64,000 nucleotides of DNA from Methanocella paludicola SANAE (GTDB taxonomy: Archaea; Halobacteriota; Methanocellia; Methanocellales; Methanocellaceae), in contig NC_013665.1 in assembly GCF_000011005.1 (NCBI RefSeq), positions 2,395,501 through 2,459,500 on the forward strand, in the 5' to 3' direction. A program made the position numbers and the translations under genes. Shown here piece by piece: positions 8,092 to 48,466 of this stretch. How positions within the stretch are numbered: the first letter of the stretch is position 1; every line of letters begins with the position of its first letter. Below the pieces are notes generated by a model. The model was not told the origin of the DNA. It did not search any database and saw only the letters and a program-made list of their open reading frames with translations.

Positions 8092-8499
8092 TAATTCAAC
8101 CTCCCATGGTTGTGTTTATTGTGCAAGCGGATATCATGGCCCGGATAAAACGGTCTTGTTTTATCGCCCCATATGCCGCATCTTCGACATATGCCGAACT
8201 AGACATCGCCAGATATAAATCCATATCCTATGGATTATTGGAGTAACATTAGGTCTTTCCCTAATAAATCTTTTTTGGTCTTTCCCCTATATAAAATGGG
8301 CTTCCGCAGGGACCAAAAGCACAGATAATATCACATTACACCGCTATATTTTTTGCCATGGGCTCGCCCGGCATCCCGATGCGCCGCCCCCAAATGCCTG
8401 CACCATACTAATAGCGAATATACGACAATTGACTAACATCCTCTACGGTCCACCATTAAATATATCAATATAGTACTATACTCTGAACTGTCGATCCGA
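8092..8499. other. Intergenic region between divergent genes
   Basis: This 408-bp AT-rich gap separates the surface-protein gene (leftward) from phosphoglycerate mutase (rightward). Its left half holds the palindrome and repeats listed separately. Its right end carries a TATA-like TTAAATATA at about 8456-8464, some 36-44 bases before the apgM ATG, implying a short leader for that gene. No coding potential or RNA gene was recognised in the middle. Confidence 0.5.
8213..8296 (-). promoter_or_regulatory. Putative promoter and operator of the PGF-CTERM surface gene
   Basis: Read on the minus strand, a TATA-like sequence (TTTATATCT) sits at about 8213-8221, roughly 120 bases upstream of the surface-protein ATG. 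It overlaps a perfect inverted repeat, AATCCATA-TCC-TATGGATT (8218-8236). Farther upstream are two direct repeats on the minus strand containing GGGAAAGACC (8252-8268 and 8277-8295). The palindrome touches the expected BRE/TATA position, so a repressor or activator site is plausible. The regulator is unknown. Confidence 0.4.
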
Positions 8500-21560: not shown

Positions 21561-21695
21561 TCCCCTTTTTATATCCTTTTTTATATGCCGCCTTATGGGA
21601 ATAATAGGCAAGCGTAAAAGCCGCTTCTGGCTGAATGCGCATGCTTGAAAAGATATAAATGATATATGCGTGTATTACGTGCGGGTGAAGGTCTA

Positions 21696-25814: not shown

Positions 25815-25860
25815 CTTCTTTTCCGTAAAATGTATATGCCCGTAACGTGATACGTATATC

Positions 25861-25922
25861 GGCGATGAAGCTCGCCGTGCTCTTATGCAGAACCGCCGCA
25901 CGGACTGCGACTAATGGCTTCT
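25861..25922 (+). promoter_or_regulatory. Structured leader element, copy A (upstream of Nudix 1)
   Basis: Hairpin GGCGA-TGAAGC-TCGCC, then a middle part with the invariant AACCGCCGC, then CTAATGGCTTCT. The loop GAAGC can pair with the distal GCTTC. A TATA-like TGTATATG lies about 30 bases upstream (25831-25838), so the element should start at or next to the transcript 5' end. The Nudix ATG is 45 bases downstream, and its GGAAG ribosome site could compete with the loop for pairing to CTTC. Confidence 0.7.
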
Positions 25923-25967
25923 GTTCGTTAAAAATGCCTTTTGGCGATAATGACGGAAGTGAAATAG

Positions 25968-27343: not shown

Positions 27344-28597
27344 TTGCCAGTACCAATTGAAAAGATCCATGCGAGAGAGATCCTCGATTCGAGGGGCAAC
27401 CCGACGGTCGAGGTCGAAGTGCATACCCCATATAATGTCGGCGTAGCATGCGTGCCATCGGGCGCGTCCACCGGTACCCACGAGGCGTTAGAGCTCAGAG
27501 ACAAGGATAAACGCTTTGGCGGCAAGGGCGTGCTGAAGGCCGTGAAGAACGTGAACAACGTGATCGCCCCCAAGGTCGTGGGAATGGACGCCGCCGCCCA
27601 GCGTAACCTGGACATGTTCATGCTGGAGCTGGACAGCACCGAGAACAAGTCGAAACTCGGCGCCAACGCCATCCTGGGCGTCTCTATGGCCGCGGCCCGG
27701 GCGGCCGCCGGCGCCCTGGAGCTGCCCTTATACCAGTACCTGGGAGGCGTTAACGCGTATAAGCTGCCCGTCCCCATGATGAACGTCATCAACGGGGGCA
27801 AGCACGCGGGCAGCGGCCTGGCGATCCAGGAGTTCCTGTTATTGCCTGTCGGCGCCGACACGTACCACGAGGCGCTGCGCATGAACGTGGAAACATACCA
27901 TACGCTCGCTAAAATCCTTAAAGACAAGTACGGCAAGTCTGCGACCAACGTGGGCGACGAGGGAGGCTATGCGCCCTCCATCGGCACGACCCGCGAGGCG
28001 CTGGACGCCATGATGGAGGCCATCGATAAGGCAGGGTACAAGGGCAAAATAAAGCTCGGGATAGACTCCGCAGCGAGCGAGTTCTTCAAGGGCGGCAAAT
28101 ACAACATCGACGGCAAAAGCCTGTCGCGTGACCAGATGGTCAAGTATTATGCGGGCATCGTGAAGGATTATCCGATCATCGTGCTCGAGGACCCGTTCGC
28201 CGAGGAGGACTGGGACGGGTTCGTCGCCATCACGAAAGAGGTCGGTAAAAAGGTGACCGTCATCGGCGACGATATTTATGTGACGAACGTGAAGCGGCTG
28301 CAGAAGGGCATCGACATGGGCGCCGCTAACTCGCTATTGTTAAAGCTGAACCAGATCGGTACCGTCTCGGAAGCTTTCGATGCTGCGACCCTCGCGTTCC
28401 GTAATAAGTATAAGGTCGCCGTGAGCCACCGGTCCGGGGAGACCTGCGACTCCATCATTGCGGACGTGGCCGTGGCTCTCAGCGCGGAGATCATTAAGAC
28501 TGGCGCGCCGGCCAGGAGCGAGCGTACCTCGAAGTACAACCAGCTCTTGAGAATTGAGGAGAATCTCGGTAAGGCTGCAGTGTACACTAAGCTATAG
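27344..28597 (+). CDS. eno: Enolase
   Basis: Dehydrates 2-phosphoglycerate to phosphoenolpyruvate. It has 417 residues with the family motifs [55 protein letters not shown], and [10 protein letters not shown] followed by SHRSGETCD; the catalytic Lys of KLNQIG is present. The start is TTG 27344, which gives the normal N-terminus. Its last seven codons lie within a 39-bp sequence repeated downstream of the P-type ATPase. Confidence 0.96.
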
Positions 28598-28615
28598 GCG
28601 TCAATTCGGGCCGCC
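28577..28615. repeat. 39-bp direct repeat, left copy (3' end of eno)
   Basis: A perfect 39-bp sequence starting GCAGTGTACAC and ending GGGCCGCC. It covers the end of eno including its TAG stop and 18 bases beyond. The identical sequence in the same orientation lies at 31156-31194. The 2,540 bp between the repeats hold the P-type ATPase gene. Confidence 0.95.
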
Positions 28616-28688
28616 TTGGGTTACATGGGAAAGGTTATCAGACAAGATAAATGGAGAATACTGGAAGGCTTTAAACATTAATCCAAAA

Positions 28689-31031
28689 ATGCAGAAGCAA
28701 GATATTTCCCTGGAAGCAAATGTTGACGTGGAAGACCTCTCTGAAGCGGAAGCCCGGGCGCGTCTGGATAAAAATGGTTACAATGAAATACTCGAAGAGC
28801 CTTCCGGCCCTTTTCGAGGCATCCTCAAGCGCCTTTGGGGGCCCATCCCATGGACGCTCGAAGCGGCGCTGATACTGGAGGTCGCTCTAGGCAAAATAGT
28901 CGAAGCATCGGTCATAGCAGTCTTATTGCTCTTCAGCGCCATAGTGGGTGAAACCCAGGAACTTCGAGCCCATACCGCTGTGGACTTCCTCCGCCACCGT
29001 CTGCAGGTAAGCGCGCGGGTGCGCCGGGATGGGCGCTGGCGATTTCTTCCCGCCCGAGAGCTTGTTTCAGGCGATCTGGTCCACATTAAATTAGGCGACA
29101 TCGTGCCTGCGGACTGCATAATCCGCAATGGGGCGGTGGAAGTCGACCAGTCTGTGCTCACAGGAGAGTCAGTCAGTGTATCACGTTCAAATGATGAGAC
29201 GATCTATTCGGGATCAACTGTCCTTCGTGGCGAAGCCATTGCAACAGTAACGGCAACAGGGTCCGGCACTTCGTACGGGCGGACGGCCGAACTGGTAAGG
29301 ACTGCCGAATCACCCGGTCACCTTCAAAAGCTTATGTTCACTGTAGTGCGCTATCTGGCAACCGTGGACCTGGTTCTCGCAGTGGTGCTCGTGGGAGTTG
29401 CCCTATGGAACAATTCCGACTTGCTCCCGCTCCTACCATTCCTGGTGGTGCTTGTGATCGCCACAGTGCCGGTCTCGATGCCGGCAAGCTTTACTGTCGC
29501 TAACGCGCTCGAAGCCCGCACGCTTGCGAAAGAAGGCGTTCTCATTACCGGATTGACGGCGATCCAGGAAGCAGCGACTATGGAGGTTCTCTGCGTGGAC
29601 AAGACCGGCACGCTGACGCAGAACCGGCCGGAGATAGCCGCTATCATCCCCTTCCCGGGCGAACTTGAGGAAGAAGTCCTGGCCTATGCCGCTGCATGCT
29701 GCGACGAGGCGACCCAGAATCCTCTGGATATAGCGATCCTTCACGAATTAGAGCATCGATCGATACAGCCACTGAGCCGACATAGGATCGTTCCTTTCGA
29801 CCCGGCGACCAAGCGTTCGGAGTCATACGTTAACCGCGATGGCCAAACCTTCCAGGTGATGCTTGGTTCTCCTCCGATCGTGGAACAGTTCGCCGACCCC
29901 CGGCCTGAATTCAAGGATCAAGTAGAAGAGCTGGCCGCCAGCGGGGCTCGCGTACTGGCGGTTGCGGCAGGCCCTGAAGGACATCTTTCACTTCGTGGGC
30001 TGGTGGCGCTGGCTGACCTGCCCAGAGAAGACGCTGCCGCCCTCGTAAAGGCTATCCAGGGCCTCGGGATCCGGGTACTTATGGTCACAGGCGACACTTC
30101 CGCTACAGCGCGGGCGGTGAGCCATAAAGTCAATCTCGGCGATCGCATCGGGGATTTGAATGTTGCCCTCAATAATCCGCTTGAGTACGACGGGTTCGCC
30201 AATGTTTATCCCGAAGATAAGTTCCGCATCGTGCAGGCTCTCCAAAAGCTTCACCTGACCACAGGCATGACAGGGGATGGCATAAACGACGCGCCGGCGC
30301 TCAAACAGGCGGAAGTCGGGATCGCTGTCAGTTCTGCCTCGGACGTCGCCAAGGCCTCCGCAAAAGTAGTCATGACCAGCCCCGGGCTCCAGGACATCGT
30401 CAAGATCATCTACGGTGGCCGCTATGTTTACCGCCGGATGCTAACATGGACCATCACGAAGATCGCGAGGACTGTCGAGCTTGCTGTTCTGCTGACCCTC
30501 GGGTATATTGCCACGGGCTTCTTTGTAACACCATTAAGCCTGATTATCATAATAATCGTTTTGAATGATATTGTGACGATCACCCTCGGAACTGATCGTG
30601 CATGGGCCTCTCCAGTACCTGAGCGATGGGATGTCAGAGATATTGCCAAAATTGCGGGCATACTTGCAGCCGGCTGGCTGGTCCTGGCGTTCTTCATCCT
30701 GTGGATAGGCCTGAACGTACTGAAACTCCCGGTCCCCCAGATCCAAACGCTCATGTTTGTCTACCTCATCTTTTCGGCACAAACAACGATTTACATAACC
30801 CGCGTTCGGGATCACTTGTGGTCGTTCCTGCCGAGCCGATACGTCATCGCGACCACGGTCGGCAATGTAGTCGTAGCATCGGCTCTCGCTATCCTGGGGA
30901 TACTGATGGCTGCAGTTCCCGTTATTTATTTGATCGGTGTTCTCGGAGCCGTTCTTGCAGCAACATTCCTGCTCGATGAGGTTAAAATTTGGTTTTACCA
31001 AAGTACGGGTATTCTAGGGAAGGTTAAATAA
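28689..31031 (+). CDS. P-type ATPase, plasma-membrane H+-ATPase-like (P3A)
   Basis: A 780-residue cation-pumping ATPase. Key motifs are the A-domain LTGES near residue 160, the phosphorylation site CVDKTGTLTQN near 305, the hinge TGDGINDAPALKQAE near 530, and VPVSMPASFTVANALEA in M4, which fits the proton-pump (P3A) branch. It has an N-terminal regulatory segment and about ten helices. ATG 28689 is chosen because upstream residues overlap the enolase 3' end and are not family-like. The gene is bracketed by a 39-bp direct repeat, and its codon choice looks less G/C-biased than its neighbours, both suggesting acquisition. Confidence 0.88.
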   Translation: MQKQDISLEANVDVEDLSEAEARARLDKNGYNEILEEPSGPFRGILKRLWGPIPWTLEAALILEVALGKIVEASVIAVLLLFSAIVGETQELRAHTAVDFLRHRLQVSARVRRDGRWRFLPARELVSGDLVHIKLGDIVPADCIIRNGAVEVDQSVLTGESVSVSRSNDETIYSGSTVLRGEAIATVTATGSGTSYGRTAELVRTAESPGHLQKLMFTVVRYLATVDLVLAVVLVGVALWNNSDLLPLLPFLVVLVIATVPVSMPASFTVANALEARTLAKEGVLITGLTAIQEAATMEVLCVDKTGTLTQNRPEIAAIIPFPGELEEEVLAYAAACCDEATQNPLDIAILHELEHRSIQPLSRHRIVPFDPATKRSESYVNRDGQTFQVMLGSPPIVEQFADPRPEFKDQVEELAASGARVLAVAAGPEGHLSLRGLVALADLPREDAAALVKAIQGLGIRVLMVTGDTSATARAVSHKVNLGDRIGDLNVALNNPLEYDGFANVYPEDKFRIVQALQKLHLTTGMTGDGINDAPALKQAEVGIAVSSASDVAKASAKVVMTSPGLQDIVKIIYGGRYVYRRMLTWTITKIARTVELAVLLTLGYIATGFFVTPLSLIIIIIVLNDIVTITLGTDRAWASPVPERWDVRDIAKIAGILAAGWLVLAFFILWIGLNVLKLPVPQIQTLMFVYLIFSAQTTIYITRVRDHLWSFLPSRYVIATTVGNVVVASALAILGILMAAVPVIYLIGVLGAVLAATFLLDEVKIWFYQSTGILGKVK

Positions 31032-31155: not shown

Positions 31156-31194
31156 GCAGTGTACACTAAGCTATAGGCGTCAATTCGGGCCGCC
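31156..31194. repeat. 39-bp direct repeat, right copy (3' end of dynamin-like gene)
   Basis: Identical to 28577-28615. On the minus strand it supplies the last nine codons and the stop of the dynamin-like gene; on the plus strand it is an orphan copy of the enolase 3' end. If the insert and one repeat are removed, enolase and the GTPase become convergent genes with overlapping 3' ends. Confidence 0.95.
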
Positions 31195-32962
31195 GGCAGT
31201 AAAGCTCGACGGCCTCCAGCCTTTTTTTATGCTCCTCCAGGGCGGCCAGCATCCGGTCGATCTCTGCGGCACGTTTCTGCGCTTCACTCGCGGACATGGA
31301 CTTTTCGGCCCGGGCTCTTTCGAGCGCCTGCTTTACTGAGGACACCAGAGTATCCGCCATGGTCTCGTACGAGGCCTTCATGCTCTTCGATGACTTCAGG
31401 AGGCTTTCCAGGAACGCATAGCGTATCTTGCCCGAGTTCATATCCAGCGAGCGCTCCACGCGCTCCCGCATAGCGTTCTTAACCTGCCCGCGGAACAGCG
31501 AAGACGGCATCATCAGGTTGAGCGTCGTGAGCGCCGTATCGAGCAGCATGCCCTCGTCCATGAAAGTATCGATGCCGTAGAATAGGGGCGTATGAAGGTC
31601 CGGCGCACCATCGAATGAGTAGTGCCGTATCTCGACATCGAATATATCGGACGAGGCCTTTTCGAACCGGCGGATGGACTCTTCCCACCTCTCGGAGTGC
31701 GACTTCGCCTTCTCAGCATAGAGCCCGGATATTTTCTCCTCCTCACTGGCACGCCAGCTATCACAGGCCCCGGAAATGACCTTAAAGAGCTGGTCCTTGA
31801 TCGCGTTCAGGAACTCGCGGTTGCCGGCTTTCGGATAAGTATCGATGAACGACTCCATCTGCCGGATGGCAACGGGAGTCATCTCGCTTTTGAATTTGCC
31901 GCTATCCACGTCCAGCGTCTTGATCATAGAGTCCACGTCCCACTCGATGAGGTGCACATTGGCTTCCTTGTCCCTCAGGAATCGCTCCAGCTCCACATTG
32001 AACAAAGTCGCTTTCTCTTCCAGCGCCTGCACTGATAGCGCCCGTGTCTTCTTCTCGATGGCCAAGGACAGGCGCCTTGCCTCCACGAGCCCCGATGCCC
32101 TGTCCAGGATGGAGCGCAGGAAGACGCCGCACTTATCGGTGGTCAAAAAGGTGCCGAGCGCTCTATCAAAATCTACGTAACCGCTCCGTTGCAAAAGCTC
32201 CCTATCGCCTTTTGTTTTCCCTTCGAGCGCCTGCTTTGCGGATAAGGGAAATAATTTAGGCTCGGCCCCCATCTTTTCCCCGATCACGGCCCGGTTAAAG
32301 GCTATAGACTCCTTCACCTCTTCGGCGTCGGCCCTGTCGACCTTGTTAAGGATGAAAAAGAACTTTTTCACGTGCTTCCCGACGTCCTCAAGGAACCGCA
32401 GCTCAACGTCGCTGACCGGCGGGTCGATGGAGAGCATGAACACGGCTGCGTCTACTTTTGACAGGAAGCTGTAGGTCACCTCAGTGTTGTGGAGGAAAGT
32501 GGAGCCGATGCCGGGCGTATCGATGATCATTACGCCCTCCTTCAGATAGTCGGAGGGGTACTCTATCTCCACGTGGCCCACGCGCTTTACATTCCGGGGA
32601 TTTCCCCGCTCGGTCACGTAATCGCCCAGTAACTCAGGCCCGATAACGTCGGAGCGCCCGTCCTGGTATATTACGGTCGTCCTCGGTACGGGGCCGAACC
32701 GGATCACCGTGATGATGGACGTGAGAGGGACCACCGCCGTGGGAAGCACGCTATCGCCAAGCAAAGCATTGATGAACGTCGTCTTTCCTCGCTTGAACTG
32801 GCCCAGCACGACCAGGTTGAACGTGTCGGAGTCCAGCTTGGCGATAAGCGCATCGGCCTCCCGGCGCGCCGCCTCCTCATCCGACATGAGCCCTCTTAAA
32901 GCGTTAAGCTCCTCCCGGGCCCTGTTTTTAAGCTCGCCGTAATCATTAACAGGCTGCATCAT
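31166..32962 (-). CDS. Dynamin-like GTPase
   Basis: A 598-residue bacterial-type dynamin-like protein. GTPase motifs are G1 GQFKRGKTTF near residue 54, G2 region PLTSIITVIRFG, G3 IDTPGIGS near 150, and G4 NKVDRAD near 207. The remainder is long and helical with charged coiled-coil stretches. A hydrophobic patch near residues 470-490 (LLDTALTTLNLMMPSSLF) could be a membrane-inserting paddle. Members of this superfamily remodel or tether membranes. The gene is preceded by leader copy B, and its 3' end is formed by the 39-bp repeat. Confidence 0.88.
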   Translation of the reverse strand: MMQPVNDYGELKNRAREELNALRGLMSDEEAARREADALIAKLDSDTFNLVVLGQFKRGKTTFINALLGDSVLPTAVVPLTSIITVIRFGPVPRTTVIYQDGRSDVIGPELLGDYVTERGNPRNVKRVGHVEIEYPSDYLKEGVMIIDTPGIGSTFLHNTEVTYSFLSKVDAAVFMLSIDPPVSDVELRFLEDVGKHVKKFFFILNKVDRADAEEVKESIAFNRAVIGEKMGAEPKLFPLSAKQALEGKTKGDRELLQRSGYVDFDRALGTFLTTDKCGVFLRSILDRASGLVEARRLSLAIEKKTRALSVQALEEKATLFNVELERFLRDKEANVHLIEWDVDSMIKTLDVDSGKFKSEMTPVAIRQMESFIDTYPKAGNREFLNAIKDQLFKVISGACDSWRASEEEKISGLYAEKAKSHSERWEESIRRFEKASSDIFDVEIRHYSFDGAPDLHTPLFYGIDTFMDEGMLLDTALTTLNLMMPSSLFRGQVKNAMRERVERSLDMNSGKIRYAFLESLLKSSKSMKASYETMADTLVSSVKQALERARAEKSMSASEAQKRAAEIDRMLAALEEHKKRLEAVELYCRRPELTPIA

Positions 32963-32991
32963 ATTTTCACCGCAAATGAACGTTTTAAAAT

Positions 32992-33046
32992 AGAAGCTAT
33001 CAGCCTTGCGGCGGTTTTGCCATGAGCCACGGCGAGCTTCATCGCC
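32992..33046 (-). promoter_or_regulatory. Structured leader element, copy B (upstream of dynamin-like GTPase)
   Basis: Read on the minus strand: hairpin GGCGA-TGAAGC-TCGCC, middle part with AACCGCCGC, and 3' segment CTGATAGCTTCT. The loop GAAGC is complementary to GCTTC. This is the most diverged copy in the middle (GTGGCTCATGGC replaces GTGCTCTTATGC). A TATA-like CTATATT (33071-33077) lies about 25 bases upstream. The GTPase ATG, with a GGTGA ribosome site, is about 30 bases downstream. Confidence 0.65.
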
Positions 33047-33085
33047 GCTGTATGTTATGCTTTTTAAAAGAATATAGGTTACGTT

Positions 33086-33502
33086 TTACTTTGAGGCTAT
33101 CCGCTTCAAGCGTCGCACCTGCTCATCGAGACGATCGCAGAGCTCTCCCATCTTTTCCGCCTGCTCATCCGACTCGATGTCGCCGTGGGTCTTTCTAAGC
33201 TTTTCGGGGCGCATGTCGTCGACCAGGTCCTCCATGAATTGAGAAAGGACATAGATACGCCACTTCACGTCCGTCTCTTCCTGCGGCAGGCCCGAGTCGC
33301 CCCAGTAGTCTTCGATTGCACGCTCCATGCCAGCCATGATATTGTTGATCTCCTTCACCTCTTCCGCTGTGGGCCGGCCCTTCAGGCTGGAATGGAACTG
33401 GTCGCCCGATGCCATAAGCGACCTTATCTCCCGGATATAGCCCAGTATCGTCGTGGCCGCGGCACTTACCGACCTGTTATGGCGCCCGCACATCCCTATC
33501 AC
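33086..33502 (-). CDS. Small helical protein of unknown function
   Basis: A 138-residue, mostly charged and helical protein with a C-terminal coiled-coil-like stretch (DEQAEKMGELCDRLDEQVRRLKRI). GTG 33502 overlaps the MFS stop codon as GTGA; ATG 33493 is an alternative three codons in. No family is recognised. Coupling to the transporter gene suggests a shared transcript, possibly as an accessory protein. Confidence 0.6.
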   Translation of the reverse strand: MIGMCGRHNRSVSAAATTILGYIREIRSLMASGDQFHSSLKGRPTAEEVKEINNIMAGMERAIEDYWGDSGLPQEETDVKWRIYVLSQFMEDLVDDMRPEKLRKTHGDIESDEQAEKMGELCDRLDEQVRRLKRIASK

Positions 33503-34710: not shown

Positions 34711-34756
34711 TTAACTCACCATTAGCAACCCGTTCAAAGAATGGCTTTGAACTATC

Positions 34757-34818
34757 AGAAGCCATTAGTCGCCCGCTGCGCGGCGGTTCTGCATAAGAGC
34801 ACGGTGAGCTTCATCACC
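34757..34818 (-). promoter_or_regulatory. Structured leader element, copy C (upstream of MFS transporter)
   Basis: Read on the minus strand: hairpin GGTGA-TGAAGC-TCACC, where the C-G pair of copies A and B is replaced by a compatible T-A pair. The invariant AACCGCCGC and CTAATGGCTTCT follow. TATAAATA (34841-34848) is about 23 bases upstream. Downstream, TTCAAAG-CCATT-CTTTGAA forms a separate hairpin before the GGTGAG ribosome site and ATG. Confidence 0.7.
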
Positions 34819-34875
34819 AGAATAGCATAGTGGCCGGTTTTATTTATATGTTTGGTCATAGAATAGTTCACTATT

Positions 34876-35655
34876 TCAATGTATAATAAGCGAACACATC
34901 TCGTATCCACCGATTGCGCATATGATGACTACCAGGGCCAGGCAAAGGTAATACAGGATCCTTTCGAAAGTCTCAGCTGAAACGTTATCTACAGCATCAC
35001 CGACAGCTTTTCCGGTCCACTTGATCGCCCTCGATAATGCGCTGGCAGGGGGTTCTTCATCCAGGCTGATCTCGCAGTAATGGCGGCCAGTATAGAAGGA
35101 TAGCGCCGTAACGGCTAATATGAGGGCAATGGAGGAGAACATGGTGACCGTCCAATAAGCCCCGGTGAGGCCAAATGCCAGCACGGCTATGATATCGAGC
35201 GCAATGATCAGCGCGGCGGCCCTGGACGGCCGGATGTCCCAGAAAATATCGATGGCCCTTTTATGCTTTCCTGCGATGGCTATAGCATCGTCCACCAGGC
35301 CAAATTGTAGATCGTATTTAAAGTTGATGTTGACCGAAGCGCACGATGGCGATAGTATCATGAAAAGGATGGGGTAAAGCGACTCTCCGTGATAGGATAT
35401 GAACATCGCTTCGACTCGCTCGGACGTGTCGATATTTTTTATGGCCGGGTAATTATCCTGGTTAAAATAATAGACCCGCGCGTTCGTATCCAGCTCCACC
35501 GTAAATCTGCCGATGGTCTCATGGAATAATTCACAGAGCAGGATTAAGTCATCGATGTACATTCGTGACATCGGTATGCGGATATTCCGGAAGGACGGCG
35601 ATTTGACCGATAAGCTCTCTATCAATGAAGATATTGCCTGCGGACTGGCCCTCAT
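34876..35655 (-). CDS. Two-helix membrane protein of unknown function (paralogue 1)
   Basis: A 259-residue protein. The N-terminal 155 residues look soluble, followed by two adjacent hydrophobic helices (AAALIIALDIIAVLAFGLTGAYW, then TVMFSSIALILAVTALSF), a short charged region, and a C-terminal hydrophobic segment. Its N-terminal domain aligns with the gene at 39.2 kb: YIDDLILLCELF with YYSDIIRLFGLF, FISYHGESLYP with FLAYYGESPDP, and the following PxxASVNINxKYxxxxG with PVNAAICINDKYGIPYG. No known domain is recognised. Preceded by leader copy D. Confidence 0.65.
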   Translation of the reverse strand: MRASPQAISSLIESLSVKSPSFRNIRIPMSRMYIDDLILLCELFHETIGRFTVELDTNARVYYFNQDNYPAIKNIDTSERVEAMFISYHGESLYPILFMILSPSCASVNINFKYDLQFGLVDDAIAIAGKHKRAIDIFWDIRPSRAAALIIALDIIAVLAFGLTGAYWTVTMFSSIALILAVTALSFYTGRHYCEISLDEEPPASALSRAIKWTGKAVGDAVDNVSAETFERILYYLCLALVVIICAIGGYEMCSLIIH

Positions 35656-35682
35656 GCGCTTAACCTCTGGATCACATTAGCC

Positions 35683-35742
35683 AGAGGCCATTAGTCGCGA
35701 CGGGCGGCGGTTCTGCACAAAAGCACGGTGAGCCTCATCACC
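35683..35742 (-). promoter_or_regulatory. Structured leader element, copy D (upstream of two-helix protein 1)
   Basis: Read on the minus strand: hairpin GGTGA-TGAGGC-TCACC, AACCGCCGC, and CTAATGGCCTCT. Here the loop is GAGGC and the 3' segment is GCCTC, a compensatory change relative to GAAGC/GCTTC in the other four copies. The 3' segment also forms CCTCTGG-N10-CCAGAGG with bases overlapping the AGAGG ribosome site, eight bases before the ATG. TATAAAG (35764-35770) lies about 22 bases upstream. Confidence 0.75.
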
Positions 35743-35864
35743 ATTGTCGTTAACACTCTCCGCCTTTATACGTCTTGCGCCACCGTATTATTTTCTGAAT
35801 TTAAAATGGCGGGATGCGATAGATGTCAAATATAAAAATAAATCGCTAAATGTAATGTCTCATC

Positions 35865-38446: not shown

Positions 38447-38557
38447 CGATAAGGCCTCCGAATTAATCCTATAAGGCCCCGAAAAGGCATAAACATTGTG
38501 CGTAATCGGCACTAAAGGATAAAACGTATAAATGATGATGGACAATACTCCCATACT

Positions 38558-38620
38558 GGTGATGAAGCTCACCGTGCTCTTATGCAGAACCGCCGCAAGG
38601 CAATGCGACTAATAGCTTCT
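38558..38620 (+). promoter_or_regulatory. Structured leader element, copy E (upstream of Nudix 2)
   Basis: Hairpin GGTGA-TGAAGC-TCACC, AACCGCCGC, and CTAATAGCTTCT, with GAAGC complementary to GCTTC. TATAAAT (38527-38533) lies about 25 bases upstream. Through the first 50 bases it closely follows copies A and C. The Nudix 2 ATG is 75 bases downstream. Confidence 0.7.
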
Positions 38621-38694
38621 CCAGACATTGAGGCGCATTGTCGATGGCGGACATTCGGCCCATATGGCAATGCGCGATGTTGCGAGTTGGTCCT

Positions 38695-39183
38695 ATGGCA
38701 GACAGGTTTGTCGTATATTGCTGTGGCCTGGTCTTTGACGACGGTAGGCTATTGATCGTAAAGCATAAAAAGTCGCAGTGGGGTAACCGGTGGGCGCTGC
38801 CGGGAGGCCGGCTGCGGCCGGGGGAAAGGTTCCAGCACTGTGTCGAAACGATGGTCGAAAGGGAGACATCATGCTCGGTGAAAGCCGTCAGGCAGATAAC
38901 GACGTCGATGTCCTATCACGACAGCTCGATACTGGACAGGCACGCAGTACTCATTTTCTACCTCTGTAAATACATGTATGGCGAGCCCCGTGCCGGAGAC
39001 GGGATCGAAGCGGCGATATGGGCGGACGAGGAGCTTTTTACGGGCCTCGCCAGGGACCTGGACATGCCCTACCAGTTCATCGAAGCGGTCTCGGCGCTTT
39101 GCATTAATGCCACGTCATTCCGGGAATTATCGTTCGACTTCAAAAAGCCCGAATCGATCTTCAGGGGCATGATCCTTGATTGA
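38695..39183 (+). CDS. Nudix-fold protein with degenerate active site
   Basis: A 162-residue paralogue of the Nudix hydrolase at 26 kb, aligned from MADRFVVYCCGLVFDDGRLLIVK onward. Its Nudix box keeps the first part (GRLRPGE), but the catalytic RExxEE has become TMVERE, losing the Arg-Glu pair and one metal-binding Glu. It is therefore probably inactive or altered, perhaps a sensor. ATG 38695 matches the paralogue start; in-frame starts at 38638 and 38644 exist. It is followed 19 bases later by a two-helix membrane protein. Confidence 0.8.
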   Translation: MADRFVVYCCGLVFDDGRLLIVKHKKSQWGNRWALPGGRLRPGERFQHCVETMVERETSCSVKAVRQITTSMSYHDSSILDRHAVLIFYLCKYMYGEPRAGDGIEAAIWADEELFTGLARDLDMPYQFIEAVSALCINATSFRELSFDFKKPESIFRGMILD

Positions 39184-39202: not shown

Positions 39203-39910
39203 ATGGATAATAAGAAAAAAATCATAGACAGTCCATGGACCAAAGCCCGGATGAAAGGTCCGCTCTCGAAATACGTGAATGAACTGGAAAAAGATTCCGT
39301 GGATAGCATTATTGAGCTGCCCGTGTCGAAGGTCTATTACTCAGACATAATCAGGCTGTTCGGACTATTCGACCTTCACTTTAAGGCTTTTAAGGCTGAG
39401 ATCGATACCTATAAAGACGCTTACTTATTCGACGAGACTAATTATACACGGATCGATGGCGTCGATAAAAGTGAAGACGTGGATGCCCTGTTCCTCGCCT
39501 ATTACGGCGAATCGCCCGACCCCCGGGTATTTTTAATGCTAACCCCCGTCAATGCGGCCATTTGTATCAATGATAAGTATGGCATACCCTACGGCTTTTA
39601 TGAAGACGCATACCGGCTATTATCGAAAAATAGGAGACTTCTCGACCGGTTTTTCCGTTTGAATATCGATTATGTTATTATCATCGCCGTCATCGCGATC
39701 ATCGTGGCAGCATTGCTGGGCGCCGGGCAGATACTATTGGTTTCTATAACGGTCGTATCTTCCCTGATCATCGCAACATTGTATGCGGTCGCTTACTATG
39801 CGAAAAGAAGATACTACCGGGTATATTTATGCGAAGCACCGGTCAAGAAAGGCCCAATTGGTTCGGCCGTGGCAAAAATGCTGGAGGCGTTACATATTGT
39901 ATTCAATTAA
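39203..39910 (+). CDS. Two-helix membrane protein of unknown function (paralogue 2)
   Basis: A 235-residue paralogue of the gene at 34.9-35.7 kb: a soluble N-terminal domain of about 150 residues, two adjacent hydrophobic helices (IDYVIIIAVIAIIVAALLGAG, then ILLVSITVVSSLIIATLYAV), and a short basic tail. The shared motif is a YYGES-type segment followed by a strand with N/DKY. It sits in a unit with the degenerate Nudix gene, a few bases after an AGAGAGAATG start context. The function is unknown. AT content is higher than in core genes. Confidence 0.65.
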   Translation: MDNKKKIIDSPWTKARMKGPLSKYVNELEKDSVDSIIELPVSKVYYSDIIRLFGLFDLHFKAFKAEIDTYKDAYLFDETNYTRIDGVDKSEDVDALFLAYYGESPDPRVFLMLTPVNAAICINDKYGIPYGFYEDAYRLLSKNRRLLDRFFRLNIDYVIIIAVIAIIVAALLGAGQILLVSITVVSSLIIATLYAVAYYAKRRYYRVYLCEAPVKKGPIGSAVAKMLEALHIVFN

Positions 39911-39973: not shown

Positions 39974-41257
39974 ATGAGTTTGAAGTCGAGGAAGATTCTG
40001 GGCACGCCCTGTGCGAACGGGGCGAAGCTGCTGTTTCTGGGAGCGGGAGAGCTTGGTAAGGAGACGATGATCGAGGCCCAGCGAATGGGCATCGAGGTCG
40101 TGGCGGTGGACAGGTACGCCAACTCGCCGGGCATGCAGGTGGCACACCGTTCATATCCGATCAACATGAAGAGCGAGCGGGCGCTGATGGCCATCGTGGC
40201 GAGGGAGAGGCCGGACGCCATCATCCCCGAGATCGAGGCCATCAACATCGACACGCTCTTCAAACTGGAGAAGGAGGGCTACTTCGTGGCGCCGTGCGCC
40301 AAGGCGGTGTGGACCGCCATGCACCGGGAGCGCCTCAGGGAGGCCATCGCCTCGACCGGGGCCCGTACCTCGAAGTACGAGTACGCCACCGACCTGGAGA
40401 GCTTCAGGAAGGCCTGCGACAAGATCGGGTTCCCCTGTGTTTCGAAGCCCATCCAGTCGTCCAGCGGCAAAGGCTCATACTTATTGAAGAGCAAGAAGGA
40501 CGTCGAGAAGGCCTTCAAGGAGGCCGAGAAGGCCCGGGGCTCGGCGGCCAAGATAATCGTCGAGGAGTTCATCGACTTCGACGTGGAGATCACCGAACTG
40601 TCGGTAAAGTACGTGAACGAGAAGGGCAGGGACGAGAGCAAGTTCGTCCGGCCGCTCGGCCACTACCAGATCGAGGGCGACTACCACTCCTCGTGGCACC
40701 CCTGGATCGAGGACGGCGACGAGAAGATGGTTAAAAAGATCGAGAAGCAAATATACGATTACTCGCAGCGCATCATGGACAACCTGGGCGGTTATGGGTT
40801 GTATGCTCACGAGATGTTCATCGACCTGAAGAATGGCAAGGTGTACGCCAACGAGACGGCGTGCAGGCCGCACGACACGGGCCTGGTGACCATGGCCTCG
40901 ATGCCGCTGGGATATTCGCAGTTCGCGCTGCACGCGAAGGCTGTTCTGGGCATTCCCATCCAGTGGCATGACAGGGTCATCGAGCCCCGGAGCAGCGCGG
41001 CGTCCCACGTCATCATCTCCCACACCGAGGGCTGGTACCCGCAGTATAACGTAACGGGCGCCTACGACGACGACACGAACGTCCTCATCTTCGGCAAGCC
41101 CGAAACGTATGCGGAACGCCGGATGGGCGTGGTGCTCTCGTGCGGGAAGACCGTAGAGCAGGCCCGCCGCAAGGCCCAGGCCAGCGCCCACAAAGTGAAG
41201 ATCGACGCCGGCCAAGGATGGAAAGGACAAGAGATAACCGAAAAGCACTATCATTAA
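39974..41257 (+). CDS. purT: Formate-dependent phosphoribosylglycinamide formyltransferase (PurT)
   Basis: ATP-grasp enzyme making formyl-GAR from GAR, ATP and formate. It has 427 residues. Signatures are LLFLGAGELGKETMIEAQRMG near the N-terminus, IIPEIEAINIDTL, the ATP-grasp loop SSSGKGSYL, and the C-terminal ETACRPHDTGLVTM. Together with PurP it indicates formate-based one-carbon input to purines, as in many archaea. Confidence 0.95.
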   Translation: MSLKSRKILGTPCANGAKLLFLGAGELGKETMIEAQRMGIEVVAVDRYANSPGMQVAHRSYPINMKSERALMAIVARERPDAIIPEIEAINIDTLFKLEKEGYFVAPCAKAVWTAMHRERLREAIASTGARTSKYEYATDLESFRKACDKIGFPCVSKPIQSSSGKGSYLLKSKKDVEKAFKEAEKARGSAAKIIVEEFIDFDVEITELSVKYVNEKGRDESKFVRPLGHYQIEGDYHSSWHPWIEDGDEKMVKKIEKQIYDYSQRIMDNLGGYGLYAHEMFIDLKNGKVYANETACRPHDTGLVTMASMPLGYSQFALHAKAVLGIPIQWHDRVIEPRSSAASHVIISHTEGWYPQYNVTGAYDDDTNVLIFGKPETYAERRMGVVLSCGKTVEQARRKAQASAHKVKIDAGQGWKGQEITEKHYH

Positions 41258-41274: not shown

Positions 41275-42831
41275 ATGACTTTCCACAGCATCCTGTCAGA
41301 ACGGGCGGATATAGCGATCGAGAAACCGGGAATGCCCTCGTTTTTCGTGGACCTGAATCTGGATCAGGTCATAGACGCGATTACGTCTGGAAAACAGGAC
41401 TATGACCTGAAACCATTTTTTTACTCTGCATTGGCCGATATAGGTAGCATTGTATATCGCCAGGAAATATTCGAGGACCTGGAAAACTTAGACCTTCTCA
41501 ATAGTGTCGATACGTTCGCCGACAATATGTGCACGATGCGAGACCACCTTGCTCAGGCGAAGAAGCTTAGTTATCGGTATCAAAAAGAAAGCTGGTTCTT
41601 GGATGCTGTGATCGTCTATTGTCATGCCGTGAAAGAGCTGACGCGCGAACTTAGCCGGATCGACTTACGTTCACGTGGATTTTGCTCATTTCGTGATTTT
41701 TTGACCGTCTACTCCCGGTCAGACCGATTCACGTCACTCCTGGAAGAAGCAAAACAAATTATGGCCGAACTATCCACCATAAAATATTCCATGATCATAA
41801 AAGACGGCACGATCAAAGTCCGCAACTATGAGTCGGAATCGGACTACAGCGCGGACGTCGAGCAGACCTTTGAAAAATTCAAGCAGGGCGCCGTGAAAGA
41901 TTACCGGTCGAACCTGCCCGAATACGTCGAGATGAACCATGTCGAGGCAAAAGTGCTCGAATTCATCGGCCTTCTGAATCCCGAGACCTTTACGAGGCTT
42001 AACGATTATTATGCAAAGAATCAGGACTATTTGGATAAAACTATAAGCGGTTTTGACCGGGAGGTCCAATTTTACATTTCCTATATCGATCACATCGGAA
42101 AATTCAGCGATATCGGATTGCAGTTCTGCTATCCACAAATATCTAACCCGGGGAAGGATGTTTACAGCCATGAGGGATTCGACCTTGCCCTGGCTAATAG
42201 ATTAATAGATAAAAAATCCCCTATCATTTGTAATGATTTTTATCTGGAGGGGAAGGAGCGAATTATCGTAGTCTCCGGCCCCAACCAGGGCGGAAAAACG
42301 ACTTTCGCACGCACCTTTGGCCAGCTACACTATCTGGCCAGTTTAGGGTGCCCTGTCCCTGGCAGAGAGGCACGGCTCTTTATATGTGACCGCATCTTTA
42401 CGCATTTCGAAAAGAGCGAAAACATTAAGGATCTCCGTGGAAAGCTGCAGGACGACCTCGTCAGGGTCATCGAGATCTTGAATAAGGCGACGCCCGGCAG
42501 TATTATCATATTGAACGAGATATTCACGTCCACGACCTTAAGCGACGCGGTCTTCTTAAGTAAAAAAGTGATGGAGAAGATAGAGGCGCTCGACTCGTTA
42601 TGCGTTTGCGTTACATTTATCGATGAGTTGTCCGCTTTTAGCGAGAAGACCGTCAGCATGGTCAGCATGGTCGTCCCGGAAAATCCGACGTTAAGGACAT
42701 TCAAGGTCATAAGGAAGCCGGCGGATGGCCTTTCCTATGCGATATCCATTTCCGAGAAGTATCGCCTTACGTACAAATTTTTAAAGGAGCGCCTGGATCA
42801 TGAAAGCGTTTCTCATGCACAAAGACCGTGA
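41275..42831 (+). CDS. MutS-like ATPase, first of an overlapping pair
   Basis: A 518-residue protein with a helical N-terminal lever/clamp-like region and a MutS-type ABC ATPase domain. The Walker A is GPNQGGKTTFA near residue 334, and the Walker B region is SIIILNEIF near 402. It lacks the mismatch-reading and connector domains of canonical MutS and the Smr nuclease domain of MutS2. ATG 41275 is used because upstream residues overlap purT and look random. Codon use is more AT-rich than the neighbouring purT. The 3' end overlaps the next MutS-like gene by 32 bases, pointing to a heteromeric complex. Confidence 0.78.
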   Translation: MTFHSILSERADIAIEKPGMPSFFVDLNLDQVIDAITSGKQDYDLKPFFYSALADIGSIVYRQEIFEDLENLDLLNSVDTFADNMCTMRDHLAQAKKLSYRYQKESWFLDAVIVYCHAVKELTRELSRIDLRSRGFCSFRDFLTVYSRSDRFTSLLEEAKQIMAELSTIKYSMIIKDGTIKVRNYESESDYSADVEQTFEKFKQGAVKDYRSNLPEYVEMNHVEAKVLEFIGLLNPETFTRLNDYYAKNQDYLDKTISGFDREVQFYISYIDHIGKFSDIGLQFCYPQISNPGKDVYSHEGFDLALANRLIDKKSPIICNDFYLEGKERIIVVSGPNQGGKTTFARTFGQLHYLASLGCPVPGREARLFICDRIFTHFEKSENIKDLRGKLQDDLVRVIEILNKATPGSIIILNEIFTSTTLSDAVFLSKKVMEKIEALDSLCVCVTFIDELSAFSEKTVSMVSMVVPENPTLRTFKVIRKPADGLSYAISISEKYRLTYKFLKERLDHESVSHAQRP

Positions 42832-44305
42832 TTTTGATATGGGACAGCACATGCCCTGGAACGAGCTATCGCTGATCCAGGACCTGGAATTGGGCACGCT
42901 ATTCATGGCCATGGCCCGGGATGACGAATTCTTATCCGGCGTGGCGAAGAAAGCCGTCTTAACCGGCATCCATAATAGCCCCGATGCCATCCTCTATCGC
43001 CAGGCCGTGCTTAAAGATTGCCTGGAGAATCCATCGGTCGTCAGGAATATTTACGATATTGCGCTGGATGCCATCGAAGGCGAGAAAAAGATTTACTGGG
43101 GATTTTTAAGCAGGTACCCGGCCGCGGTCTTAGGTCGTTCGCTGGATGTGCTGGAGATATTCGTCAATAGGCTAAAAAAATTAAGGAAGATCGCCGACGA
43201 ATACGCGGAACAATTTGTGTCGGACGGATTTGTTACTCTTTTTACGATGCTAAAAAGAGAGCTGAGCGATGAATATTTTGCCGAGGTCGAGGGCCATCTT
43301 AAGATGCTGAAGTTCCGTGAGGGGGTCCTGATCAGTGCGGAGCTCGGGAAAGGCAATAAAGGCACCCGCTATGTCCTTCGCCGGCCGCATAACATTAAAC
43401 AGGGCTGGCTGGAGCGGGTCTTTAGCAAGAAGGCTCCCCTTTATTCTTATACCATCCCCGAGAGGGATGAGGCGGGCGCACGGGCTTTATCTGACCTAAG
43501 GGACCGGGGGATCAACAACGTGGCGAATGCGCTCGCCCAATCCTGCGATCATATCCTGAGCTTCTTCAACATGCTGCGGACAGAATTAGCATTCTATATC
43601 GGTTGTTTAAATTTACACGAGCAGCTTTCTCAAATGGGAGAACCGGTGTGTTTCCCGATACCAGTAGAAGCTGAAAAACGTAAGCATTCATGCAAAGGGA
43701 TATATGATGTCTGTCTGGCATTGACCATGAAACAAAAAGTGGTTGGCAATGAGCTCAACGCGGACGATAAGGACCTCGTCATGATCACAGGCGCTAATCA
43801 GGGAGGCAAATCGACCTTTTTACGCAGCATAGGACTGGCCCAGCTTATGATGCAAAGCGGCATGTTCGTGCCGGCCGAGTATTTCAGTGCCAACGTGTGC
43901 GATAATATTTTCACGCATTACAAGCGGGAAGAAGATGTCACGATGAGCAGCGGGAAACTGGACGAGGAACTCAGCCGGATGAACGATATCGTTAACCATA
44001 TCTCCCCTAAATCAATATTGTTATTTAACGAATCCTTCGCCGCGACGAACGAAAGGGAAGGTTCGGAAATTGCCGGTCAGATCACGGCTGCCCTTGTCGA
44101 GGGACATATCAAGGTCTTCTTTGTGTCGCACCTGTATAGTTTCGCACACTCGCTTTATGATAAGCAATTACAAAACGCGGTCTTTCTGAGAGCTGTCAGG
44201 CAAAGCGATGGTAAGAGGACGTACCGGTTGGTCGAAGGCGAGCCGCTACAAACGAGCTACGGTCAGGATCTGTATAGCAGGATTGTCCAAACGAACACAA
44301 CGTGA
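42800..44305 (+). CDS. MutS-like ATPase, second of an overlapping pair
   Basis: A 501-residue partner of the preceding gene. The Walker A is GANQGGKSTFL near residue 332, followed by a serine-rich signature region (MSSGKLDEELSRM), Walker B ILLFNESFAATNEREG near 410, and the switch His in VSHLYSFAH. The N-terminal half is helical with no mismatch-recognition motif. A GGAG ribosome site sits within the end of the upstream gene. Stand-alone MutS core ATPases like this have no assigned role. Confidence 0.8.
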   Translation: MKAFLMHKDRDFDMGQHMPWNELSLIQDLELGTLFMAMARDDEFLSGVAKKAVLTGIHNSPDAILYRQAVLKDCLENPSVVRNIYDIALDAIEGEKKIYWGFLSRYPAAVLGRSLDVLEIFVNRLKKLRKIADEYAEQFVSDGFVTLFTMLKRELSDEYFAEVEGHLKMLKFREGVLISAELGKGNKGTRYVLRRPHNIKQGWLERVFSKKAPLYSYTIPERDEAGARALSDLRDRGINNVANALAQSCDHILSFFNMLRTELAFYIGCLNLHEQLSQMGEPVCFPIPVEAEKRKHSCKGIYDVCLALTMKQKVVGNELNADDKDLVMITGANQGGKSTFLRSIGLAQLMMQSGMFVPAEYFSANVCDNIFTHYKREEDVTMSSGKLDEELSRMNDIVNHISPKSILLFNESFAATNEREGSEIAGQITAALVEGHIKVFFVSHLYSFAHSLYDKQLQNAVFLRAVRQSDGKRTYRLVEGEPLQTSYGQDLYSRIVQTNTT

Positions 44306-44324: not shown

Positions 44325-44748
44325 GTTCTTGTGCGTTTTTGGGATGATATATTGCTTTGGCTGATGCCTTCGCTCGTTTTTATGTTATGCCGTCGTTGAG
44401 TGGTCCAACCACAGGGGCACGGAGAGCGCTGAGTTTCACGGAGTTTTCTTATAAAGGGAGACCCAGAGGGCACAGGGGACGGGTTTATAACTTTCCCGGG
44501 GCACGGAGTTGAAAGAGGCACTGCCGAGGATAAACCGCATTATTGTTTATTGGTCAACCGGGCCTCAATAAACTCTGTGCCCCAGGAAAGCCAATAAACC
44601 AGGCTCTGAGCTCTCTGAGTCTCAAATTATTAAAAAATAACTCTGTGTAACTCCCGTGCGCTCCGTGCCCCTGTGGTTGGACCACTCAACGACGGCATAA
44701 CTAGAAAAGGATAAAAAAACATTCATCCCAAAACCGCGGAAGAGTCTT
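44325..44748 (+). repeat. Dispersed fold-back element, copy 2
   Basis: Same orientation as copy 1 at 22.8 kb. It starts with GTTCTTGTGCG, and its inverted arms run from TTATGCCGTCGTTGAG to CTCAACGACGGCATAA. The shared centre contains AGGCACTGCCGAGGATAAACC and a GTTTATTGGTCAACC block. It occupies the gap between the convergent second MutS-like gene and glutamine synthetase. No coding potential is seen in it. Confidence 0.8.
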
Positions 44749-46115: not shown

Positions 46116-46295
46116 GTAAGAAGAATAAGGACCCGGGATACATATAAAATTATCCTGAGAAGCGCTTTCGACCGACTCCAGAGTAATATCGCTCTCGGAT
46201 AAGGACCGCCATCATATTATGTGACCGCAAATTATTTTTACACCACGCGACGAGCGCTATTAATCAGTAAATATACACTATACAGGCGAGGAGAA

Positions 46296-47393
46296 ATGAC
46301 GACCGATAGTATTAAGAAAATGGTAAGAGAATTCAAGCCAAAAAAAGTGAGAATAGGCATATTGGGCTCACACTCTGCCCTGGAGATCGCCTCGGGCGCA
46401 AAGCAGGAAAAGCTCGAGACCGTGGTGATCTGCGAGAAAGGCAGAGAAAAGACGTATGCAAAGTATTACAAAAATCTCTTCGACCACATCATCGTCCTCG
46501 ATAAGTTCGCGGACATCATTAAAGAACCAAACCTGAAAAAGCTGAGCGCCCTCAACACGATATTCGTGCCCAGCCGCTCCTTCTCCGTGTATACCGGTTA
46601 CGAGAACATCGAGCAAAAGTTCACGGTGCCCCTCATGGGCAACCGGTCCATGCTCAGGACCGAGGAGCGCAACACGCCTAAGAATCAGCACTACCTGCTC
46701 AAGAAAGCGGGGATACTGACGCCTAAGATCTTCAAATCGCCCGACGAGATAGACCGCCTGTCGATCGTCAAGGTAACCGAAAAAGGGCGGCCGCTGGAGC
46801 GGGCCTTTTTCTACGTCGCATCGCCTGAGGAATACGAAAAGAAATCTAAAGAGCGCATACGAAAGGGCATCGTCAGCGCAGAGATGCTGAAGAGCTCGAT
46901 CATCGAGGAGTACGTGATCGGCGCGAAGTTCAACGCCAACTTTTTCTGGTCGCCCCTGACCGACGAGATAGACCTGCTCGGCTTCGACCGGCGTATACAG
47001 ACAGACCTGGACGGAGTGCTTGACCTGCCCGCCGCCGAGCAGCTCGAGCTTAATATCCCCACGCAGAACATCGAGATCGGCCACATGGGCGCGACCATGC
47101 GGGAAAGCCAGCTCGAGATGATGTTCGACGCCGCGGAGCGCTTCGTGAAGACCTGCAAAAAGGAGTACCCGCCCGGAATGATAGGCCTCTTCGCCTTACA
47201 GGGCGCCGTGACCAGGGACCTGAAATTTTACGTCTTCGACGTAAGCCCCCGTATCCCGGGCTGCCCGTGCGTCGAGCCTACTTCGCCCTACATGAAGTAC
47301 AAGTACGGAATGGAAGTCGGCCCCGGAAGGCGTGTTGCCATGGAAATAAAGCGCGCGATGAAAGAGGACAGGCTTTCTGATGTGCTAACATGA
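46296..47393 (+). CDS. PurP-family ATP-grasp protein, copy 2
   Basis: A 365-residue paralogue of PurP. It keeps the fold landmarks GILGSHSALEIASGA, IIVLDKFADII, a VPLMGNRSMLRTEE segment, and a C-terminal FDVSPRIPG. It has diverged at the glycine-rich nucleotide loop, where KVTEKGRPLERAFFY replaces [11 protein letters not shown]. It may therefore be a different ligase or a non-catalytic subunit. ATG 46296 follows a strong GAGGAGA ribosome site. The stop overlaps the next PurP paralogue by four bases (ATGA). Confidence 0.82.
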   Translation: MTTDSIKKMVREFKPKKVRIGILGSHSALEIASGAKQEKLETVVICEKGREKTYAKYYKNLFDHIIVLDKFADIIKEPNLKKLSALNTIFVPSRSFSVYTGYENIEQKFTVPLMGNRSMLRTEERNTPKNQHYLLKKAGILTPKIFKSPDEIDRLSIVKVTEKGRPLERAFFYVASPEEYEKKSKERIRKGIVSAEMLKSSIIEEYVIGAKFNANFFWSPLTDEIDLLGFDRRIQTDLDGVLDLPAAEQLELNIPTQNIEIGHMGATMRESQLEMMFDAAERFVKTCKKEYPPGMIGLFALQGAVTRDLKFYVFDVSPRIPGCPCVEPTSPYMKYKYGMEVGPGRRVAMEIKRAMKEDRLSDVLT

Positions 47394-48466
47394 GCGATGT
47401 GAGCGGCATACTGGATAATTATGACCTGAAAAATATAGCCATAGGCACGCTCGGCTCCCACACCGCGCTCAACATCTTCAAAGGCGCAAAAGAGGAAGGC
47501 TTCAGGACGGTATGCGTCTGCAGGGAAAAAGATGCGATACTGTACCGGAAATTCGGTGTCGTGGACGATATGATCATTGTCCGGGACTTTAGCGAGCTGA
47601 TGACCGGGCATATACAGGAAAAGCTACGGCGTCTCAACGTTATCCTTATACCCCACGGCTCGTTCACGGCTTTCCTGAGCACGGAAGACCTGACCGGCAG
47701 CCTCCGAGTGCCCATGTTCGGGAACAGGGAGCTGCTCCATTTAGAGGCCGACCGGAAAGAGCAGAGAGAATGGCTGCGGAAGGCGGGGCTCAGGCTTCCC
47801 GGCACCATTAAGTCGCCAGAGGATATCGACAGGCTCGTTATCGCGAAGCTGCCTGGCGCAAAGGGCGGAAGAGGATATTTCCTTGCGGCGTCGCCGGAAG
47901 GGTTCCATAGAAAGTTCAGCGACATGGTCAGGCGCGGGCTCCTGAAAGAGGAAGACAAGGAGAATATCCACCTGCAGGAGTACCTGATGGGCGTGAACGT
48001 CTATCCCAGCTATTTCTCCTCGATCATCAAGAACGACGTGGAATTCTTAGCTATCGACAGGCGCTACGAATCCGCCGTCGACGCGATAGGCAGGATCCCC
48101 GCGGGCGAGCAGCTCGAGATACGGGCGAACCCGACCTATACGATCGTGGGCAACTTCCCCATCGTTATAAGGGAGTCGCTGCTTCCGGAGCTGATCAGGA
48201 TGGGCGAAAATGTCCATGAGACGGCGAAGAGGCTGGCGCCGCCGGGAATAATCGGGCCTTTCTGCCTGGAGACGGTAGTGACGGACGACCTCAATATCCA
48301 CACGTTCGAGATCTCCGCGCGCATCGTGGCGGGAACTAACGCCGGCATCGGCACTTCTCCATATGCCTATCTGAAGTATGGAGAGAACATGTACATGGGG
48401 AGACGTATCGCCCTCGAAATAAGGGAAGCCCTTGAACAGGGCAGGCTCCATGAGATCCTGACATAA
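47390..48466 (+). CDS. purP: PurP-family synthetase, copy 3
   Basis: A 358-residue PurP paralogue with the standard loop LPGAKGGRGYF, IIPHGSFTAFL, GNFPIVIRESLLPE and EISARIVAGTN. In these it resembles the purP at 21.7 kb. It is translationally coupled to copy 2. One of these genes presumably carries out AICAR formylation; the reason for three copies is not apparent. Confidence 0.85.
   Translation: MSDVSGILDNYDLKNIAIGTLGSHTALNIFKGAKEEGFRTVCVCREKDAILYRKFGVVDDMIIVRDFSELMTGHIQEKLRRLNVILIPHGSFTAFLSTEDLTGSLRVPMFGNRELLHLEADRKEQREWLRKAGLRLPGTIKSPEDIDRLVIAKLPGAKGGRGYFLAASPEGFHRKFSDMVRRGLLKEEDKENIHLQEYLMGVNVYPSYFSSIIKNDVEFLAIDRRYESAVDAIGRIPAGEQLEIRANPTYTIVGNFPIVIRESLLPELIRMGENVHETAKRLAPPGIIGPFCLETVVTDDLNIHTFEISARIVAGTNAGIGTSPYAYLKYGENMYMGRRIALEIREALEQGRLHEILT

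Follow-up and report, generated by a model that had tools for sequence, protein, structure and literature searches.

The A/B gene pair

We analysed a stretch of 64,000 nucleotides from Methanocella paludicola SANAE (contig NC_013665.1, positions 2,395,501 to 2,459,500 of the forward strand), referred to here as the window and numbered from its first letter; the genome is a single contig of 2,957,635 bases. At the centre of this work are two overlapping genes in the window, A and B, each encoding a MutS-core ATPase and assigned from PF00488, homologue starts, AlphaFold2 models and a fold search. The pair and its immediate surroundings comprise:

41275..42831, + strand: gene A, MutS-core ATPase, 518 amino acids
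42800..44305, + strand: gene B, MutS-core ATPase, 501 amino acids
42800..42831, + strand: overlap of A and B, 32 bases
44374-44427 / 44658-44711: inverted repeat after B, with 54-nucleotide arms

The start codons of A and B agree with the start position of nearly all homologues, and as nearly all homologues of B begin at the equivalent residue, we take the start at 42800 as correct. Each protein contains one MutS_V domain (PF00488; E 4e-20 for A and 6e-22 for B in Pfam), and no second Pfam domain scores above the cut-off in either, which leaves the pair without MutS_I, MutS_II, SMR or KOW domains. AlphaFold2 single-chain models, built on 53 relatives for A and 55 for B, were confident [predicted local-distance difference test (pLDDT) 88.8 and predicted template-modelling score (pTM) 0.85 for A; pLDDT 88.9 and pTM 0.86 for B]. 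Both show an all-helical lever of ~280-300 residues followed by the ATPase, which in A corresponds to a lever at ~1-300 and an ATPase at ~320-513. The top PDB folds for both models are MutS, Msh2/Msh3/Msh6 and MutS2, including 7vuf and the ribosome-bound 7qv3. A and B are only 28% identical, chiefly across the ATPase, and are therefore not copies of one another.

These results bear out the core of a first-pass annotation, which had described two different MutS-core ATPases of about 500 residues with a lever and no mismatch domain or nuclease, overlapping by 32 bases and more AT-rich than the purT gene upstream (G+C content ~0.43-0.51 in A/B versus ~0.60 in purT). That annotation also pointed to a fold-back element. 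Such an element does exist downstream of B, but the palindromic repeat (44374-44711) belongs to a family resembling miniature inverted-repeat transposable elements with ~40 copies genome-wide, so it says nothing about A/B, and we rejected it as part of the unit.

Altered ATPase motifs in A and B

Both proteins show the PF00488 domain, the Walker A pattern G-x-N-x-G-G-K and the helical lever of the MutS-core ATPase superfamily, and depart from it at the Walker B D-E, which reads N-E in 107/108 sequences of the family. The family form of Walker A is G-P/A-N-Q-G-G-K, appearing as GPNQGGKTT in A (335-343) and GANQGGKST in B (331-339). Walker B is I-L-N-E in A (N414, E415) and F-N-E in B (N410, E411), and the asparagine is found in all 53 A sequences and 54 of 55 B sequences, while D-E is retained in the KamC, MutS2 and MutS5-like sequences with a readable Walker B. 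The aspartate of Walker B (D693 in E. coli MutS) helps to hold Mg2+. By alignment offsets, the substitution in A and B is the one introduced into E. coli MutS for the D693N structure 3k0s.

A second difference lies in the H-loop, where B keeps Thr-His (His444) and every A has Thr-Phe (V-T-F in M. paludicola, with F448 in place of the histidine). With A altered at two motifs and B at one, the pair is asymmetric.

Distribution, pairing and phylogeny

We scanned 84,980 species genomes and confirmed 73 loci, of which 70 (L034-L103) hold the A/B family and the remaining three have only MutS2-type or very short matches. Most of these ~70 homologous loci carry both genes intact, and the homologues are thus not confined to fragments of full MutS. 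The archaeal range takes in Thermoplasmata and Woesearchaeota besides the kin of Methanocella, and the bacterial range Bacillota, Chloroflexi, Spirochaetes, Bacteroidetes, Proteobacteria, Acidobacteria, Verrucomicrobia, Actinomycetota and Thermotogae. Among plasmids, 103 records have some match and 47 cover at least 80% of B; a phage collection yielded partial ATPase matches only. The accessory or acquired status suspected by the first-pass annotation agrees with this spread over plasmids, archaea and many bacterial phyla, which also points to mobility.

The order is A then B at every locus with enough sequence, with one chimeric exception, and the overlap is exactly 4 bp in 59/66 pairs. Pairwise distances for A and B over 49 loci are strongly correlated (r=0.90, a value reached by 0/2000 permutations). 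The putative obligate partnership that had been read from the overlap is supported by this comparison. The exception, L103 in Bellilinea caldifistulae (7233-8756), is a single in-frame chimera in which the lever of A continues, from Walker A onwards, as the ATPase of B, and lies 57 nucleotides downstream of a fluoride riboswitch.

In a tree of the ATPase domain, A and B each form one clade (support 100/98 and 99/98) and group together (91/82). MutS1 is monophyletic (100/97) and includes neither A nor B, and KamC joins MutS2 (85/86). By these sequence comparisons, A and B are two sister families, constantly paired and distinct from MutS1, MutS2 and KamC.

The scores against family models of the known MutS types fall far below the cut-offs. 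MutS1 and the Msh2-Msh3 and Msh2-Msh6 dimers share heterodimer logic, the ATPase fold and the top PDB matches with the pair, but A and B lack the mismatch-binding, connector and full clamp domains, and reach only 85 and 77 bits for the cut-off of 480 (NF003810), and no more than 85 bits in the MutS1 models overall (cut-off 642 for TIGR01070). MutS2 (TIGR01069) likewise has a MutS core without a mismatch domain and a similar fold (7vuf, 7qv3); A and B differ in having no SMR or KOW domain, two different subunits and the N-E Walker B, and score 65 and 71 bits for a cut-off of 400. KamC (NF052383), which NCBIfam names a lysine 5,6-aminomutase reactivase ATPase, is an enzyme-linked, single-core MutS-like ATPase of ~540 amino acids that also has the MutS core and no mismatch domain. 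In contrast to the pair, it is a single MutS-core gene beside a non-MutS gene of ~340 amino acids and has D-E in Walker B; against its model, with a cut-off of 300, A reaches 45 and B 72 bits. No aminomutase occurs among the annotated window neighbours or the recurrent neighbour families of A/B. KamC orthology, first suggested by an NCBIfam match, was rejected from 12 true KamC loci and the tree, which put KamC with MutS2.

Fluoride riboswitches accompany the pair

The functional context of the pair, which the first-pass annotation had overlooked, comes from fluoride riboswitches and fluoride genes. Using a riboswitch model trained on 30 Rfam-called aptamers and counting matches at E<=0.01, we found 103 matches in 1.16 Mb around A/B pairs, a count that is not fully independent as the 30 training aptamers are among them. 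The same model gave no match in 0.25 Mb around MutS1, MutS2, MutS5-like and KamC genes, and this control, together with the direct Rfam matches, is independent of the training set. At least one fluoride riboswitch is present at 50/70 loci, and where enough upstream sequence was available, a riboswitch in the same orientation lies within 400 nucleotides upstream of A at 31 of 59 loci. In Thermoanaerobacterium saccharolyticum (L036), for one, this distance is 65 nucleotides. For the fluoride exporters themselves, the riboswitch-controlled share is ~15% of Fluc and ~30% of CLC-F proteins (review, PMC11139923).

The association is also seen at the level of genomes. Among 300 Bacillota genomes, a riboswitch was found in 13/14 with the pair versus 93/286 without it (Fisher p=8e-6, or p=1.4e-4 minus three genomes known beforehand), p-values that overstate independence because the genomes are interrelated. 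The sole pair-bearing genome without a riboswitch (G107) has a partial match only. Bacillota genomes with at least three fluoride riboswitches carry the pair in 10/12 cases, and the pair therefore marks the most elaborate fluoride defences.

The families that recur beside the pair, counted over the 70 loci, are enolase (23), dynamin (18), MFS (16), Na/H antiporter (10), DUF190 (10), CrcB (9) and pyrophosphatase (8). Annotated plasmid islands share this set, as on a Klebsiella plasmid where crcB, phosphoglycerate mutase, enolase, USP and pyrophosphatase adjoin the pair. This Klebsiella set matches that of GI3 in Enterobacter cloacae FRM, a mobile fluoride-resistance island proven by experiment, with riboswitch-controlled enolase, pyrophosphatase, phosphoglycerate mutase, USP and CrcB (PMC5533749); unlike the Klebsiella plasmid, its published gene table has no MutS pair. 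Judged from gene content and sequence, A and B almost certainly constitute a co-inherited, two-gene MutS-core family associated with fluoride riboswitches and fluoride genes.

Mobility, presence on plasmids and the loci without a fluoride marker could instead reflect an anti-phage defence system, a role raised in the first-pass annotation, or a general accessory ATPase pair that merely resides on mobile islands. The riboswitch directly upstream in half of the testable loci and the co-occurrence across genomes speak against both. PADLOC returned only weak P-loop matches and no defence model beyond these, and the recurrent neighbours are fluoride genes and include no defence genes; defence is therefore unsupported and was rejected, and we consider this whole class of explanations very improbable.

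The fluoride gene island in the M. paludicola window

A whole-genome Rfam search gave five matches to the fluoride riboswitch (RF01734) with E<1e-5, three of them above the cut-off, and all five lie inside the window. They head or adjoin the following genes:

25852..25930, + strand: fluoride riboswitch RF01734, heading a run of NUDIX, prenyltransferase-fold, enolase and P-type ATPase genes
27344..28597, + strand: enolase, a fluoride-sensitive enzyme
28554..31031, + strand: P-type ATPase of the plasma-membrane proton-efflux type (above the family cut-off), in the enolase run
31166..32962, - strand: dynamin-like GTPase, directly behind the riboswitch at 32984-33055
32984..33055, - strand: fluoride riboswitch, 45.1 bits, the best in the genome
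33499..34710, - strand: MFS transporter, behind the riboswitch at 34749-34827
34749..34827, - strand: fluoride riboswitch
34876..35655, - strand: orphan of 259 amino acids, behind the riboswitch at 35675-35751
35675..35751, - strand: fluoride riboswitch
38549..38628, + strand: fluoride riboswitch RF01734, heading the run that ends in A-B
38638..39183, + strand: NUDIX hydrolase, behind the riboswitch at 38549-38628
39203..39910, + strand: protein X, 235 amino acids with a hydrophobic stretch (likely transmembrane), same run
39974..41257, + strand: purT, the second copy in the genome, between X and A

The riboswitch at 38549-38628 is the sole Rfam match in the 14-kb A/B region (30.8 bits for a gathering threshold of 34, E 3e-5), and the order riboswitch-NUDIX-X-purT-A-B runs along one strand with gaps of ~20, 64 and 18 bases after NUDIX, X and purT. 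This riboswitch likely controls A-B directly. A scan for sigma-70-like promoters and terminators, which has little value in an archaeon, gave results at or below chance.

G003 is the closest relative, with a B that is 73% identical. There the riboswitch, NUDIX, A and B follow one another in this order on a single strand, and a second riboswitch comes right after B. The NUDIX protein of G003, encoded between the riboswitch and A, is 66% identical to that at 38638-39183. The purT gene of this relative is located elsewhere, not between NUDIX and A, and given that purT is duplicated in M. paludicola and absent from the block in the relative, riboswitch-NUDIX-A-B looks to be the older arrangement. 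Two further genomes of the same family have neither the A/B pair nor a fluoride riboswitch. The purT copy at 39974-41257 is 99.5% identical in DNA over 1292 bp to that at genome positions 2835015-2836292, with the likeness confined to the gene, and by its sequence looks either to have been inserted into the run or to have been kept alike by gene conversion. Like enolase, PurT may be a fluoride-sensitive Mg enzyme of which the second gene supplies an additional copy. The window also encodes three members of the DUF1246/DUF1297 (PurP) family (21666-22784, 46221-47393 and 47390-48466, the last two in tandem).

The genome contains no CrcB/Fluc and no CLC, and no mismatch-repair-type MutS was found elsewhere in it. 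In a genome without these exporters, the riboswitch-led MFS protein (33499-34710) is a candidate fluoride exporter of another type, and the proton-efflux P-type ATPase (28554-31031) fits the acid load that comes with entry of hydrogen fluoride. The orphan at 34876-35655 has no Pfam or NCBIfam match. We found no paper in the open-access literature, to which our survey was limited, that links dynamin with the fluoride riboswitch.

Proposed function of the pair

Taken from sequence, an obligate, asymmetric MutS-core ATPase heterodimer of the fluoride-stress regulon is a reading of A and B that we rate about even. The ATPase domains would associate in the manner of other MutS dimers, with the two levers together forming a clamp that ATP opens and closes. 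What this clamp acts on is a separate matter. We tentatively favour, at somewhat less than even confidence, proteins locked by fluoride, with the clamp as a reactivase rather than a DNA-repair factor, since fluoride-sensitive enzymes and ion pumps recur nearby, a precedent exists in KamC, and the mismatch and nuclease parts are missing. Such a clamp would grip proteins frozen by fluoride-metal-phosphate complexes (enolase, pyrophosphatase or other Mg-dependent enzymes) and would open and reset them through the use of ATP. With D replaced by N in Walker B of both sites, Mg2+ would be bound less tightly, which, speculatively, could spare the A/B machine itself from trapping by Mg- or Al-fluoride.

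MutS2 suggests a different client. Fluoride-metal complexes freeze GTPases and ATPases in the transition state, for instance on ribosomes, and a MutS2-like pair might split or clear the jam. MutS2 cores, among them the ribosome-bound 7qv3, are indeed among the top folds of both proteins, B. subtilis MutS2 splits stalled ribosomes (PMC10897456), and the Walker B change would suit a machine that has to resist fluoride-metal trapping. A and B lack, however, the KOW and SMR domains that bring MutS2 to collisions (PMC10897456); no translation genes are among the recurrent neighbour families, and the pair falls outside the MutS2 clade. A role in rescuing ribosomes or GTPases is in our view unlikely.

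Below this we place a DNA-repair or DNA-structure factor induced by fluoride, acting as a MutS-like clamp on damaged or branched DNA. The MutS-like fold and ATPase would allow it, and Weinberg 2010 (PMC2864571) lists mutS as DNA repair under the crcB motif and suggests a DNA-damaging stress. Against it, the pair has no mismatch-reading domain and a reduced clamp insert, no MutL-type partner recurs nearby, the A-B clade is separate from MutS1, and the genes that recur nearby encode ion transporters and fluoride-sensitive enzymes instead of DNA repair proteins. The lever is also not basic (mean charge in A -3.3 per 100 amino acids), although lever net charge fails to separate DNA binders from protein binders. 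The clients therefore rank as fluoride-locked proteins, then ribosomes or NTPases, then DNA.

Several observations weigh against the reactivase reading and its fluoride setting. Some eight loci with long flanks (in Verrucomicrobia, Thermoplasmata and Actinoallomurus) have neither a riboswitch nor a fluoride gene, and a candidate client gene is often absent, enolase being nearby in only about one third of loci. In M. paludicola, the aptamer stands 2.6 kb upstream of A and below the Rfam gathering threshold (30.8 versus 34 bits), and an internal promoter before purT may drive A-B. KamC is an analogy only, because it groups with MutS2 and not with A/B, and it is a precedent for a MutS core on an enzyme by name only (NF052383). 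The net charge of the lever, finally, does not distinguish binding of protein from binding of DNA. The most specific form of the proposal, a fluoride reactivase whose heterodimer, with D-to-N at both sites, reverses fluoride poisoning of Mg-dependent enzymes or NTPases alongside export, is a conjecture that we think has the lesser chance of being right.

Relation to the mutS genes of the crcB motif

The crcB motif, whose ligand was identified as fluoride in 2012, was reported in the leaders of genes 'involved in DNA repair (mutS)' (Weinberg 2010, PMC2864571). Those genes, annotated as MutS and lying in a riboswitch 5'-leader context, are very probably the same as A/B, and with the link on record since 2010, the association itself is not new. 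They were described as DNA repair genes, whereas we find two partnered MutS-core proteins with no mismatch or nuclease domain and an altered Walker B. No description of a two-subunit, non-mismatch fluoride MutS family with this alteration was found in the open-access literature. Our sequence comparisons indicate that the 'mutS' behind fluoride riboswitches forms a MutS family of its own, with two subunits and devoted to fluoride stress, and is not the mismatch-repair MutS.

For a family spread over bacteria, archaea and conjugative plasmids, the 'DNA repair' label is thereby replaced by claims that can be tested: an obligate heterodimer, a D-to-N adaptation of the ATPase at a Mg-coordinating residue, and the undoing of fluoride poisoning besides export. 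If the reactivase reading is true, the pair would represent a previously unrecognised class of MutS machine.

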